64,000 nucleotides of DNA from Sphingobium sp. EM0848 (GTDB lineage: Bacteria > Pseudomonadota > Alphaproteobacteria > Sphingomonadales > Sphingomonadaceae). The stretch lies in NCBI RefSeq assembly GCF_013375555.1, contig NZ_JABXWB010000005.1, positions 1,452,001 through 1,516,000 on the forward strand, given 5' to 3'. A program made the translations under genes and the position numbers. A model generated the notes under the pieces. The model was given only the letters and a program-made list of their open reading frames with translations, searched no databases and was not told the origin of the DNA. Below are positions 48,144 through 63,469 of this stretch, one piece after another (position 1 is the stretch's first letter; every line of letters starts with the position of its first letter).

Positions 48144-48229
48144 TATAGTTCTTCATCACTCGATTTCGATCGCAAGCATCCTGTGACAGAGAGACATCCG
48201 CTCCCGCTTGCCTGACGGGAGTTCCTCCC
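48144..48229 (+). promoter_or_regulatory. Repeated leader L1 (promoter and SD-sequestering hairpin)
   Basis: TATAGT (48144-48149), GTGACAGAGAGAC (48183-48195), then CTCCCG (48201-48206) pairing with CGGGAG (48216-48221) across 9 bases. The right arm is the Shine-Dalgarno for ATG 48230. The 55 bases between -10 and GAGAGAC closely match L5 at 54348-54435. Confidence 0.75.
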
Positions 48230-48481
48230 ATGATTACGATGCGTAAATACGAGACGAGAAATCCACAATGGAAAGATGATTTTGTCGGGGCGGTCGCGCG
48301 CGTAGCATATGCGGGGTCTATACACGGCTATGAGAAAATCGTCGCTGCCAGAATCTGGCTGAAAGGCCATATACGTAGAGCCAGTGACGATACATGGACT
48401 GCGGGTCGAAAGGCTGAACTCGAGGATGCACTAGACGAATGGGAGAATGAGGGTGGCGGCTTGGTTCAGCGGGAATGCTGA
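48230..48481 (+). CDS. Small WENEGG protein, family A copy 1
   Basis: 83 aa. The core DDFVGAVARVAYAGSIHGYE, then KIVAARIWLKGHI, is nearly identical to the protein at 54087-54347. The C-terminus has ALDEWENEGG. It is helical and soluble, with no signal peptide. Both copies stand behind the same leader type, so they probably respond to the same signal. No known domain is recognised. Confidence 0.85.
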   Translation: MITMRKYETRNPQWKDDFVGAVARVAYAGSIHGYEKIVAARIWLKGHIRRASDDTWTAGRKAELEDALDEWENEGGGLVQREC

Positions 48482-48541
48482 TCCCGGTTGCACCGTTTCT
48501 GCTCAGCGATTTGTCCACTCTTATCTTGAAGGAGCGTTCCG

Positions 48542-48670
48542 ATGGCCAAAAGTCAGAAAAGATCGAACCGCGAGGTTCGTAAACCCAAGGCCGCAAAGCC
48601 CCGGAAGCACAATGCCTCCAGCCCCTCGCAAAAGCCGGGTATATTGAGCATCGTGACGCTGAAAAGCTGA
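48542..48670 (+). CDS. Small basic protein, family I copy 1
   Basis: 42 aa, MAKSQKRSNREVRKPKAAKP, ending VTLKS, with GGAG 7 bases before ATG 48542. Very rich in Lys and Arg, so it may bind nucleic acid or ribosomes. The protein at 60115-60243 is a close paralogue of equal length. It follows the family A gene by 60 bases and likely shares its transcript. Similar short proteins exist in many alphaproteobacteria; their role is unknown. Confidence 0.82.
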   Translation: MAKSQKRSNREVRKPKAAKPRKHNASSPSQKPGILSIVTLKS

Positions 48671-48701
48671 TTACATTATCGGTGCTGAGCGGGTGCGTCT
48701 T

Positions 48702-48986
48702 TCAATCGTCTATTGGGCGTTGCAGACGACCGAAATCGGTCTTGTCTGCCGCGGGGGCGCGTTCATTTTCCTCTCCCTCCCGGTGCGATTCCAGAGCGAT
48801 CGCTGCGTCTTGCGCGCTTAACCTACCCCGCTCTCCGCTTTCCTGAGACTCCGCCTCCATGGCCTGGACCTCCCAGGCGCTGGCGGCCGCGAGCGCGACC
48901 CTGCGCAACTTCTCAACGGTTGAGGCGGCCGCGACCTGCCGATGATGCGCTGCCTGCCGCCTGCACATGACTGTACTGTTTAGCAC
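48702..48986 (-). CDS. Small helical protein, family E copy 1
   Basis: 94 aa from GTG 48986, aligned with the ATG of copy 2. CRRQAAHHRQVAAASTVEKL, then RRVALAAASAWEVQAMEAES and AQDAAIALE are shared with 60589-60867. Alanine-rich, probably one long helix bundle. Seven bases separate it from the stop of the family D gene, the same gap as in copy 2, so the pair is a conserved two-gene unit. Function unknown. Confidence 0.75.
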   Translation of the reverse strand: MLNSTVMCRRQAAHHRQVAAASTVEKLRRVALAAASAWEVQAMEAESQESGERGRLSAQDAAIALESHREGEENERAPAADKTDFGRLQRPIDD

Positions 48987-48993
48987 GGCTGGT

Positions 48994-49323
48994 CTACCGG
49001 CTGCCGTCGGAGGGTGTGTTTCGGACCCAGAGGGGAACCGAGGCCCGATTCGCGGGCGGGCCCCGGCCCGCTCGCGCTGCCCTTTGATCGCGTTCCCAGG
49101 CCGCATCCAGATGCTCAGGGTTGACCGGGTGACGCTCGATGGCCGCGCCATTTCTGATGCGCAGCGTTGTAGCTATCCGGCGTAAGGCCGCATGGACATT
49201 GCCCTCAAGCACCTCCTCTTCCGTTTCCACATCATAGGTGCCGGCGGGAAGAGGCGTTTCGAATTCCGGCAGTTGGAATGGCTCGGAAAATATCACCGAT
49301 TTGTGGGTGGTCTGGCTGATCAT
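48994..49323 (-). CDS. Small protein, family D copy 1
   Basis: 109 aa. Conserved block with 60875-61249: FSEPFQLPEFETPLPAGTY, VETEEEVLEG, RRIATTLRIRNGAAIE, and the ending VPLWVRNTPS. The first half looks like a small beta barrel. The start ATG 49323 is preceded by the conserved string AGCCGTCATGA, also found in copy 2, and by a 13-codon upstream ORF. Function unknown. Confidence 0.8.
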   Translation of the reverse strand: MISQTTHKSVIFSEPFQLPEFETPLPAGTYDVETEEEVLEGNVHAALRRIATTLRIRNGAAIERHPVNPEHLDAAWERDQRAARAGRGPPANRASVPLWVRNTPSDGSR

Positions 49324-61249: not shown

Positions 61250-61296
61250 GACGGCTTCGCCCCGGCGGGGGGGATTCGGGTCAGATCGTCAGGCAT
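61246..61296 (-). CDS. Upstream ORF of family D copy 2
   Basis: 16 codons, MPDDLTRIPPAGAKPS, with CGGGAGC of the L7 hairpin as its SD; its TGA is inside the ATGA of the main gene. It corresponds to the 13-codon ORF of copy 1. The CCC-CCC-GCC run in the middle could slow ribosomes. Confidence 0.58.
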   Translation of the reverse strand: MPDDLTRIPPAGAKPS

Positions 61297-61300
61297 AAGC

Positions 61301-61381
61301 TGCTCCCGGTTGCAGGCGGGAGCACGACGGTCTCTCTGTCACAACATGCCTGCGGCATGATCGGGGTGATGAGGGATTGTA
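61301..61381 (-). promoter_or_regulatory. Repeated leader L7
   Basis: Minus strand: TACAAT (61381-61376), GTGACAGAGAGACC (from 61342), then a perfect 7-bp stem GCTCCCG / CGGGAGC with an 8-base loop, the strongest hairpin of the eight. The right arm is the SD for the upstream ORF at 61296. Confidence 0.78.
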
Positions 61382-61413
61382 ACACGAAACGCCCGAACAC
61401 ACGCATTAATTCG

Positions 61414-63072
61414 TCAGGCATGGTGAACGGTGAACGATGGGCTTGAGAGGCCCCTCACCCCCCCCTGCCGGGTCTGCGGGACGTCGCTGTCGGCGACCCA
61501 CTCTGCAACCGCCGCTTCGGTCGTGATCAGCAGTCCGGCGATGGAGGCCGCGTCCTGCAAGGCCGTACGGACAACCTTGGTAGGATCGATGACACCGGAC
61601 TGGAAGAGGTTTTCATATTGCTCGCTCTGCGCGTTAAATCCCAGATTTTCGTCCCGCTCGTCCAACAAACGACCGGCGACCACGCCGCCATCATATCCCG
61701 CATTCTCCGCGATTTGGCGGAGTGGCGCCTGAAGCGCTCGGCGGATGATCTCGATGCCCCGCCGCTGGTCGGCCTTGACCGGATCAAGGCCGTCCAATGC
61801 CTTCGAAGCATAAAGAAGGGCGGTGCCGCCGCCGGGTAAAATGCCTTCCTCCACCGCCGCCCGGGTCGCATGCAGAGCGTCCTCCACCCGATCCTTGCGT
61901 TCCTTGACCTCAAGCTCCGAAGATCCGCCGACCTTGATAACGGCAACGCCGCCGGATAGCTTGGCAAGACGTTCCTGGAGCTTCTCGCGATCGTAGTCGC
62001 TGCTGCTGGTCTCAATCTGCGCCTGGAGCGCGGCGACGCGCGCCTTGATGGCTTCCGCGCTGCCGGCACCGTCGACAATCGTGCTAGTATCCTTCGTGAT
62101 CGTCACGCGCTTGGCGGTGCCCAGCCTGTCCAGCGTAACATCCTCCAATTTGATGCCAAAATCCTCCGTCACAACGTCGCTTGCCGTCAATATGGCGATG
62201 TCCTCCAGCATCGCCTTGCGCCGATCGCCAAAGCCCGGCGCCTTGACCGCGGCGACCTTCAGTCCGCCGCGCAGCTTGTTGACGACCAGCGTCGACAGCG
62301 CATCCCCCTCGATATCCTCGGCAATGACGAGCAGCGACCGGTGCGCTTTGGCAACCGCTTCCAAAATAGGAAGCATCGCCTGCACATTTCCCATCTTCTT
62401 CTCATGGATCAGGATGACCGGGTCTTCCAGCTCGACCGCCATCTTCTCGCTGTTGGTGATGAAATAGGGCGAGAGATAGCCGCGATCGAACTGCATGCCC
62501 TCGACCACCTCCAGTTCGAACCCGACGCTCGCTCCCTCCTCGATGGTGATGACGCCTTCCTTGCCGACCTTCTCCATCGCCTCGGCGATCCGGTTGCCCA
62601 CCACCTCGTCGCCATTGGCCGAAACGATGCCGACCTGGGCGATCTCCTGATTGTTCGATACCGACTTGGACCGCGCCTTGAGTTCGGCGACGACGGCGGC
62701 GACGGCCAGGTCGATGCCGCGTTTGAGGTCCATCGGATCGATGCCCGCCGATACCGACTTCATCCCTTCCCGAATGATCGCCTGCGCAAGGACGGTTGCT
62801 GTCGTGGTGCCGTCTCCTGCATGGTCATGCGCTCTGGACGCCACGGCACGGATCATCTGCGCGCCCATATTCTCGAACTTGTCCTTGAATTCCATTTCCT
62901 TTGCGACCGTGACCCCGTCCTTGGTGATACGGGGCGCCCCAAAGCTCCTGCCAATGAGGACGTTGCGTCCCTTGGGGCCCAGCGTCACGCGGACGGCATT
63001 GGCGAGGATATCGACACCGCGCGCGATCCCTTCGCGGGCCTCGTGCGCGAATTTCAGGTCCTTGGCAGTCAT
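61414..63072 (-). CDS. groEL: Chaperonin GroEL, orphan copy
   Basis: 552 aa with the GroEL layout: [40 protein letters not shown] (the ATPase Asp), the apical domain with [10 protein letters not shown], and [13 protein letters not shown] with GYDGG near the end. The usual Gly-Gly-Met tail is absent; it ends [18 protein letters not shown] replaces the common TNDxAGDG. No groES is next to it, so it likely uses the co-chaperonin of the main operon. It sits among leader-controlled stress-like genes, suggesting an accessory heat or stress role. Confidence 0.93.
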
Positions 63073-63366
63073 GATTTGGGTCCGACTTTCCTGGCGCTGG
63101 TCCGCGACGGAATGTCGCTTTCACAAGCGGAAGCCAGCGCTACCAAATTGCGAACTGGCAGGCCTGAATGCGGACCGCCGATGAACCTGATATGCGCCCT
63201 GCGGCAGCCAAAGACAAGCTGGACGCAATATGTCGGTGCCGATCAGCGATCCCTTGGAACGCGTGACTCTATTACAAGCCATGAGCAGAAATATCGTGTC
63301 GCAGGTGGAATACCGGGCACTTCCCAAGGATATTTCTCTCGAATTTTTGGTGACACGGCAATGTTG
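63073..63366. other. Gap upstream of groEL
   Basis: About 290 bases with no supported gene. It must contain the minus-strand groEL promoter; no CIRCE-like repeat was found by eye. Confidence 0.4.
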
Positions 63367-63469
63367 TATGATCGTCGATTAAGCCTATATGGAAGTCATC
63401 AAGTGCATAGCAACGTAGGCGCTCTTGACTGAGAGACCATCGCGCTCCCGCTTACCAAGGGAGTGACAC
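63367..63469 (+). promoter_or_regulatory. Repeated leader L8
   Basis: TATGAT (63367-63372), TTGACTGAGAGACC (63425-63438), CTCCC (63445-63449) pairing with GGGAG (63459-63463) over 9 bases, then ATG 63470. The -10 to motif distance is about 10-15 bases longer than in most other copies. Confidence 0.72.

Follow-up and report, generated by a model that had tools for sequence, protein, structure and literature searches.

A repeated leader RNA with covarying helices and a putative ribosome-site hairpin precedes small genes of Sphingobium sp. EM0848 and other Alphaproteobacteria

The window analyzed here is a stretch of 64,000 nucleotides from Sphingobium sp. EM0848 (contig NZ_JABXWB010000005.1; G000:C5:1452001-1516000 in our numbering), in which eight copies of a short leader sequence (L1 to L8) stand directly upstream of small genes or short open reading frames (ORFs). 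Their coordinates, running from the inferred +1 to the base preceding the start codon, are collected in Table 1 together with those of the genes. An original prediction, made from the letters of the window alone, had named these eight leaders, and all of them were found at the predicted places. Their length, counted between the A of ATC and the start codon, is 72-79 bases, and their parts follow one another in a constant order. The -10-like box comes first, next ATC or ATT (conserved), then a variable stretch holding GCARGC or one of its variants, and a stretch resembling GTGAC. A or T and GAGAGAC follow, separated by a short spacer from the [CT]CCCG core, behind which lie the ribosome site and ATG. 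GAGAGAC and the [CT]CCCG core were present in 8/8 leaders. Reading and alignment confirmed the predicted order of parts, the -10-like box and the complementarity of CUCC(C) to GG(G)AG, and also that pairing at the ribosome site is weakest in L6.

Table 1. Leaders, genes and other features in the window (positions in the window; P1, 5′ helix; PK, loop-loop pseudoknot; SD, Shine-Dalgarno; aa, amino acids)
Feature	Position	Strand	Remarks
L1 leader	48155-48229	+	Covariance-model match
L1 P1 helix	48156-48159 with 48183-48186	+	UCAC with GUGA; inferred +1 is A 48155
L1 PK	48172-48177 with 48206-48211	+	GCAAGC with GCUUGC
L1 linker	48189-48195	+	GAGAGAC
L1 SD arm	48201-48206 with 48216-48221	+	CUCCCG with CGGGAG
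Gene behind L1	48230-48481	+	83 aa; WENEGG motif close to end; no Pfam/NCBIfam family
L2 leader	49371-49446	-	Covariance-model match
Short upstream ORF behind L2	49329-49370	-	13 aa
Gene after L2 short ORF	48994-49323	-	109 aa; clusters with L7 gene; no Pfam/NCBIfam family
L3 leader	50176-50248	-	Covariance-model match; PK CCAGAC/GUUUGG
Gene behind L3	49819-50175	-	118 aa; WENEGG motif; no Pfam/NCBIfam family
L4 leader	52876-52949	+	Covariance-model match
Gene behind L4	52950-53303	+	117 aa; WENEGG motif; TPM 21.7 bits (curated cut-off 22.1)
L5 leader	54348-54424	-	Covariance-model match; arm CCCCCG
Gene behind L5	54087-54347	-	WENEGG motif; no family (searched as 54087-54350, one codon longer)
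L6 leader	59624-59702	-	Covariance-model match; P1 UUGCG/CGCGA; SD pairing reduced
Gene behind L6	59510-59623	-	37 aa; member of large WENEGG/DLNYL cluster
L7 leader	61297-61370	-	Covariance-model match
Short upstream ORF behind L7	61246-61296	-	16 aa; 4-base overlap with next gene
Gene after L7 short ORF	60875-61249	-	124 aa; clusters with L2 gene; no Pfam/NCBIfam family
groEL-type chaperonin gene	61414-63072	-	No leader of this family; adjoins L7 and L8
L8 leader	63398-63469	+	Covariance-model match; P1 UCAAG/CUUGA; PK GUAGGC/GCUUAC
Gene behind L8	63470-63688	+	72 aa; DLNQL-type small protein

A scan of the window with the covariance model R3, whose training rows included the window leaders, gave eight matches of 41-62 bits (E 3.5e-15 to 1.5e-9). 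These were the sole strong matches, and the next best one reached 10.7 bits. The short motif GTGACWGAGAGAC with ≤ 3 mismatches occurred 19 times in the window at an expectation of 18.7, a number not beyond chance, and covariance models were therefore used instead. Across the genome, 14 good copies (including the eight of the window) and two weak matches were detected, all of them within 38 kb (C5:1500154-1538232).

Beyond the original prediction, the analysis revealed copies outside the window, a spread to other genera and two helices. The helix P1 belongs to a hairpin at the inferred +1, and its arms match antiparallel even where both differ (UCAC/GUGA in L1, other arms in L6 and L8). A second hairpin contains a CUCC(C) arm complementary to the Shine-Dalgarno (SD) sequence, and between the two lies the invariant linker [UA]GAGAGAC. 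By eye, the upstream GCARGC can pair with GCYUGC of the SD-hairpin loop, with variants in L3 and L8, which gives a loop-loop pseudoknot (PK). In the 14 own-genome copies, 91.6% of the P1 and PK cells were paired, and 8 of 11 pairs showed double changes. Of the five measures, four were reached by 0/500 shuffles and one, pair types, by 7/500; a control with slid partners gave 29-41% pairing. Since these rows include those in which the helices were first noticed, further sequences were needed. For their alignment we used R1, a sequence-only model without base pairs built from the 14 copies, because such an alignment cannot lean towards a structure. R1 found 109 matches across 96 loci from other genomes, which had been fetched by R1 or by a DNA pattern. 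In these rows, 90.1% of the P1 and PK cells were paired, and 90 cells carried double changes compared to 39 after shuffling (reached by 0/500); eight pairs had a double change, a number reached by 21/500 shuffles. In a G-test with average-product correction over column pairs, a statistic that ignores phylogeny, two PK pairs ranked 1 and 2 of 1776 column pairs and three P1 pairs ranked 10, 12, and 14.

An alignment-free test was based on 156 dereplicated matches. They remained from 223 pattern matches (loci up to L231) after removal of 18 matches judged non-leader by title or context (14 loci: L001, L002, L098, L102, L103, L105, L106, L111, L114, L116, L120, L121, L124, and L139), 13 overlapping duplicates and 36 near-identical sequences, and still contain probable chance matches, e.g., L048:2576, L087:5251, and L110:637. 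The scores for P1 (5.50 vs. 4.88 shuffled) and PK (5.43 vs. 4.91) were above those of all 300 shuffles. When PK was scored by Watson-Crick pairs only, the values were 4.83 and 4.12. For the 111 matches with a PK strand other than GCUUGC, Watson-Crick pairing was better with the own strand (4.61) than with GCUUGC (4.12) or with strands shuffled among these matches (3.89; largest of 300, 4.10). Alignment A7 comprised 63 non-sphingomonad matches, including Methylobacterium, Methylorubrum, Microvirga, Bradyrhizobium, Reyranellaceae, and Alphaproteobacteria records. Here P1, to which the alignment was fitted, was paired in 93.3% of cells and PK, to which it was not, in 81.5%. Four P1 pairs ranked 1, 2, 3, and 5 in the G-test and one PK pair ranked 6, the other PK pairs lying at 200-1564. 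Both P1 arms change together while the loop length varies. Covarying helices, as required of a structured cis-regulatory leader RNA, are therefore present in P1 and PK. Beside this conserved fold, GAGAGAC and GCUCCCGC form a conserved unpaired core in alignments A5 to A7 and in the R3 consensus; the degenerate copy L9d was excluded from A4 and A5. A mini-hairpin of three base pairs (GYG/CGC) presenting CUCC, an idea obtained by eye, was rejected as it is broken in several copies.

Compared to 271 background ribosome sites (ORFs of ≥ 250 amino acids in the loci, with the start giving the best SD; some of these ORFs may be false), 155 leaders were enriched in SD complementarity: GGAG was present in 77% vs. 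30%, GGAGC in 48% vs. 10%, and the longest pairing between arm and SD was 5.55 bp vs. 4.50 bp. For folding we used the 139 leaders with a P1 of ≥ 5 pairs and, among them, the 110 with GGAG. In nested folding of the 110 leaders at 37 °C, 8% of the SD was unpaired, and 41% when the arm was blanked. Between 20 and 50 °C, the pairing probability of SD and arm was 0.73-0.76, and blanking the arm left 38-43% of the SD free. Within this nested folding no melting of the SD was predicted, the unpaired fraction being 0.08 at 20, 30, 37, 42, and 50 °C. The enrichment of SD complementarity, and not arm covariation, thus supports a leader RNA that would mask the ribosome site.

The 139 leaders, aligned on P1, were also inspected for promoter elements. 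Counting back from the U of AUC, bases 36 to 34 show a weak TTG (43, 58, and 44%), and bases 13 to 11 show T (43%), A (58%), and A or T (36% each). The base directly before this U is A in 88%. The leader thus lies on the sense strand between start codon and promoter, the profile of which is weak but placed as expected. The usual promoter spacing suggests that +1 is the A of AUC and that the RNA begins with P1. An EcfG-type promoter was considered, but the profile looks sigma70-like instead; a separate count was not made.

In the search of sphingomonad genomes, as proposed with the original prediction, the leader was found in 117/298 genomes and 49/91 genera of Sphingomonadaceae. In the set formed by the own genome and its relatives it occurred in 34/61 genomes, with 34/37 inside the genus Sphingobium, and in other families of Sphingomonadales in 0/24 genomes. 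It was also present, with up to nine copies, in 25/41 genomes of the family of a more distant genome, G656. This family appears to be that of Bradyrhizobium, judging by the resemblance of the small proteins behind the leaders of G656 to one in Bradyrhizobium macuxiense (L135). Broader surveys scored 14-38 candidates per genome, and their counts are lower bounds: at least 14/387 genomes of the class, at least 12/150 of the order of G656, at least 13/150 of the phylum and, in a second survey of the class, at least 13/144. Several survey matches are borderline, and in 7 of the 13 genomes of the second class survey only E-values of 1e-4 to 1e-3 were reached. All matches listed in the phylum survey are within Alphaproteobacteria, which is a weak negative control because the share of its 150 genomes outside the class is not shown. 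Carriers of the leader include members of Sphingomonas, Sphingopyxis, Sphingobium, Novosphingobium, Qipengyuania, and Tsuneonella, and also to Methylobacterium, Methylorubrum, Microvirga, Bradyrhizobium, and a metagenome-assembled genome of Reyranellaceae. A pattern scan of contigs returned 58 stretches, of which 46, including two of a single uncultured bacterium, were taken as leaders. The best R3 scores were 33 to 65 bits in 46/46 leader stretches, many of which are training rows, and ≤ 25.9 bits in the other 12, which carry the same 17 fixed bases by chance and are a better negative control than the phylum survey. In a collection of viral contigs the patterns occurred in six, and by eye L260-L263 and L265 carry well-formed leaders, L264 (20.2 bits) does not. 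L261 and L262 contain two to three leaders each together with relatives of window genes, and may therefore be chromosomal islands called viral. Neither the L1 leader nor the L4 protein had a match in a plasmid collection. The two weak matches of the own genome lie at G000:C5:1518847 and 1535121 in the same cluster as the good copies; the first (L009) keeps linker and arm, with a partial P1 (5/6 pairs) and a poor PK (3/6).

A usable start codon was found within about 60 bases downstream in 154 of the 156 dereplicated matches. The 148 downstream proteins fell into 49 sequence clusters, some of which represent probable chance matches, and the largest cluster (60 proteins) unites WENEGG and DLNYL-type small proteins. 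In Pfam and NCBIfam searches, no gene behind a window leader gave a family above the cut-off, with TPM on the L4 gene just below, and none matched a heat-shock family; genes of other genomes were mostly judged by eye. A search with the L8 protein returned 21 proteins at E ≤ 0.001, the query included; the few with a name are called hypothetical protein, and the organisms, where given, are Sphingobium. Outside the window, two of the downstream proteins tested contain DUF6894 (PF21834) above the cut-off, whereas an MbcA/ParS C-terminal match and a cNMP-binding match on a fragment of a Crp/Fnr-like protein remained below it. Further types recognized by eye were Crp/Fnr-like regulators, tiny membrane peptides and small zinc-ribbon-like proteins. 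The first ORF was shorter than 32 amino acids in 39/154 cases, and in 16 of these 39 the ORF chosen as the next one overlapped it by four bases, suggesting coupled translation.

Several arrangements were seen repeatedly behind the leaders. ORFs of 13-18 amino acids directly follow L2 and L7 and also leaders at L047, L050, and L060, and in Sphingobium relatives such an ORF precedes a conserved gene of ~78 amino acids whose product starts with MSRA. Divergent Crp/Fnr-like and DUF6894-type genes each have their own leader at L092:2991(-)/3167(+) and L101:7255(-)/7432(+). Similar membrane peptides of 32-35 amino acids with an EW[IL]VPPV stretch follow leaders at L163, L251, and L257, in genomes of the class. 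Elsewhere in the window, positions 42276-47057 (+) encode a hybrid protein of 1593 amino acids, the single chain of which combines CheB, CheR, PAS, histidine kinase, receiver and LuxR-type DNA-binding domains. Between 54420 and 58812, a DDE transposase ORF (55125-55619) separates an SMP-30-like piece (54420-55010) from an ORF with only a TonB receptor plug (57706-58812), an arrangement suggestive of a disturbed accessory region.

The repetition of the leaders is genuine, and they form part of a folded RNA absent from Rfam 15, in line with the original statement that no described family fits. The 4227 Rfam families gave no match in the window at the gathering threshold, the only threshold applied to L6-L8. 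At E up to 10, no sense match was obtained on the leaders of five related loci and of window positions 48050-54500 (L1-L5), the sole overlap being an antisense Fluoride match on L136 (16.1 bits; gathering threshold 34). Among the matches listed in the open-licence literature, titles and abstract openings contain no description of the leader. Riboswitches of the SAM-II and preQ1-II type are pseudoknots that take in the SD. The leader shares with them shortness, 5′ position, a pseudoknotted fold predicted to take in the SD, invariant loop bases and an inferred translational control. It differs in that its two hairpins pair through their loops, that the linker is GAGAGAC, that the downstream genes have no pathway in common and that no Rfam riboswitch matches it. 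SAM-II, presumably among the Rfam families searched, gave no covariance-model match to the leaders in the all-Rfam scans. Other elements of an earlier alphaproteobacterial survey are reportedly in Rfam as well. SAM-II itself, named in that survey of alphaproteobacterial RNA elements, is alphaproteobacterial like the leader family (PMC1273637). The present leader also recalls the c-di-GMP (GEMM) riboswitches, from which it is set apart by the lack of an Rfam match. Those riboswitches occur in many copies per genome before unrelated genes. In the TPP riboswitch, a CUGAGA motif follows a hairpin. The leader has CUGAGA directly after its hairpin too, but in many copies U is replaced by A, and no thiamine gene was noticed behind the leaders. 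A TPP riboswitch was rejected, as none of the six stretches scanned at E up to 10 gave a TPP match.

The reading that we consider probable, with moderate confidence, is a translational switch resembling an orphan riboswitch, in which a pseudoknotted leader closes the SD and a trans-acting signal, most likely a small molecule, switches many small genes. It starts from what sequence comparison established, namely P1, PK, the invariant linker, the place just before the start codon and the enrichment of SD complementarity. The leader would be the 5′ end of an mRNA transcribed from a housekeeping-type promoter, starting at the A of AUC. This RNA would form the 5′-terminal P1 hairpin followed by the invariant linker (CUGAGAGAC or CAGAGAGAC), and in the second hairpin CUCC(C) would pair with the SD. 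In most copies the two hairpin loops would pair (GCARGC with GCYUGC), and the resulting compact pseudoknotted fold would keep the ribosome site closed in the cell. By tipping the balance, a trans-acting signal might then jointly switch many small genes at the level of translation. Such a signal could most easily be a small molecule contacting the invariant linker and the GCUCCCGC strand. As many copies precede unrelated small genes, it would be a general signal rather than the product of a pathway.

Several observations weigh against this switch. In the 109-row G-test, the other P1 pairs ranked 52, 540, 1316, and 1703 and the other PK pairs 309-849; these pairs outside the top ranks are of low rank or constant. 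Ranks 3-9 were taken by pairs outside the structure, so that relatedness adds noise. With G-U pairs allowed, the 111 matches with a deviating PK strand paired equally well with GCUUGC (5.25 in both cases). A PK of ≥ 5 pairs is missing in 20/156 matches; the core is therefore P1, linker and arm, with PK usual but not universal. In the 139 leaders, the whole-leader folding energy was modestly better than shuffled (mean z -0.86), and P1 had a probability > 0.5 in 54%. GGAG is missing from the expected place in 33/156 matches. The SD helix showed no covariation, its CUCC arm hardly changing and the pairs flanking CUCC/GGAG being matched by 127, 187, and 321 of 500 shuffles. The original claim that the arms co-vary is thus not supported: seven of the eight window leaders carry CTCCCG as their 5′ arm and L5 carries CCCCCG, and variation is confined to the extent on the SD side. 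The idea of a conserved leader RNA that would mask the SD is still supported, the evidence for its structure coming from P1 and PK instead of the SD arms. GCUCCCGC is retained even where the SD differs, which probably reflects a second role beyond SD masking. The promoter bases are weak, the commonest reaching 36-58%, and the downstream genes lack a shared pathway that would point to a metabolite.

The main rival is that the leader is bound by a global RNA-binding protein, which would clamp or open the SD hairpin without a small molecule. The up to about 15 copies per genome before genes without a shared pathway, the invariant and unpaired linker, and the copies that lack PK and keep P1, linker and arm would all suit such a protein. 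Many translational repressors bind single hairpins, and the combination of P1, invariant linker and pseudoknot is more elaborate than that; overall we judge a protein-binding site rather unlikely, if worth serious attention. The invariant sequence at unpaired positions across very distant genomes would also suit a trans-encoded small RNA (sRNA) that targets GAGAGAC and GCUCCCGC and thereby opens or closes the leader. The pattern GAGAGAC-N7-CNCCCGC occurs 12 times on both strands of the own genome, ten times in the leader cluster and twice elsewhere, a count that speaks weakly against an sRNA, since one with under about 10 matching bases would escape it. We regard this possibility as improbable.

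Among the readings offered by the original prediction (thermometer, riboswitch-like element or sRNA-controlled leader), the riboswitch-like element fits best and the thermometer is least likely. ROSE and fourU thermometers sequester the SD in a leader, as is predicted here close to an orphan groEL. Heat-driven melting of the SD hairpin needs neither invariant unpaired bases nor a pseudoknot, both of which the leader has. In addition, SD pairing as predicted for the 110 leaders by nested folding alone does not vary between 20 and 50 °C, the genes behind the window leaders gave no heat-shock family match, and there is no Rfam match of any kind. The proposed link to groEL holds insofar as this gene adjoins L7 and L8, but it is not behind a leader, and L8 points away from it. 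A thermometer is thus very improbable. Hardly credible, finally, is a non-regulatory origin, with promoter and leader duplicated together with paralogous gene cassettes, or a DNA operator. Some genes are indeed paralogous (L2/L7 and the WENEGG set) and the copies cluster, but the leader precedes 49 downstream-protein clusters (a few being probable chance matches) in sphingomonads as well as in Methylobacterium, Microvirga, and Bradyrhizobium, and a DNA operator would not need joint changes of the P1 arms with variable loop length.

The leader could represent a new riboswitch class for an alphaproteobacterial signalling molecule, a second messenger or alarmone and not the product of a pathway. 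Present in as many as about 15 copies per genome, it would control translation of dispersed small genes in parallel, in a range of hosts that extends from sphingomonads to Bradyrhizobium and Methylobacterium; we put this forward tentatively, as possible rather than probable. The pair changes observed in P1 and PK indicate which mutations are informative. One RNA fold marks the WENEGG, DLNYL, DUF6894, tiny membrane peptide and Crp/Fnr-like families as possibly co-regulated, and thereby defines a candidate regulon spanning sphingomonads and relatives of Bradyrhizobium and Methylobacterium. If the signal were identified, these genes would gain their first functional assignment, and a class of riboswitches or of RNA-protein interactions might be added.

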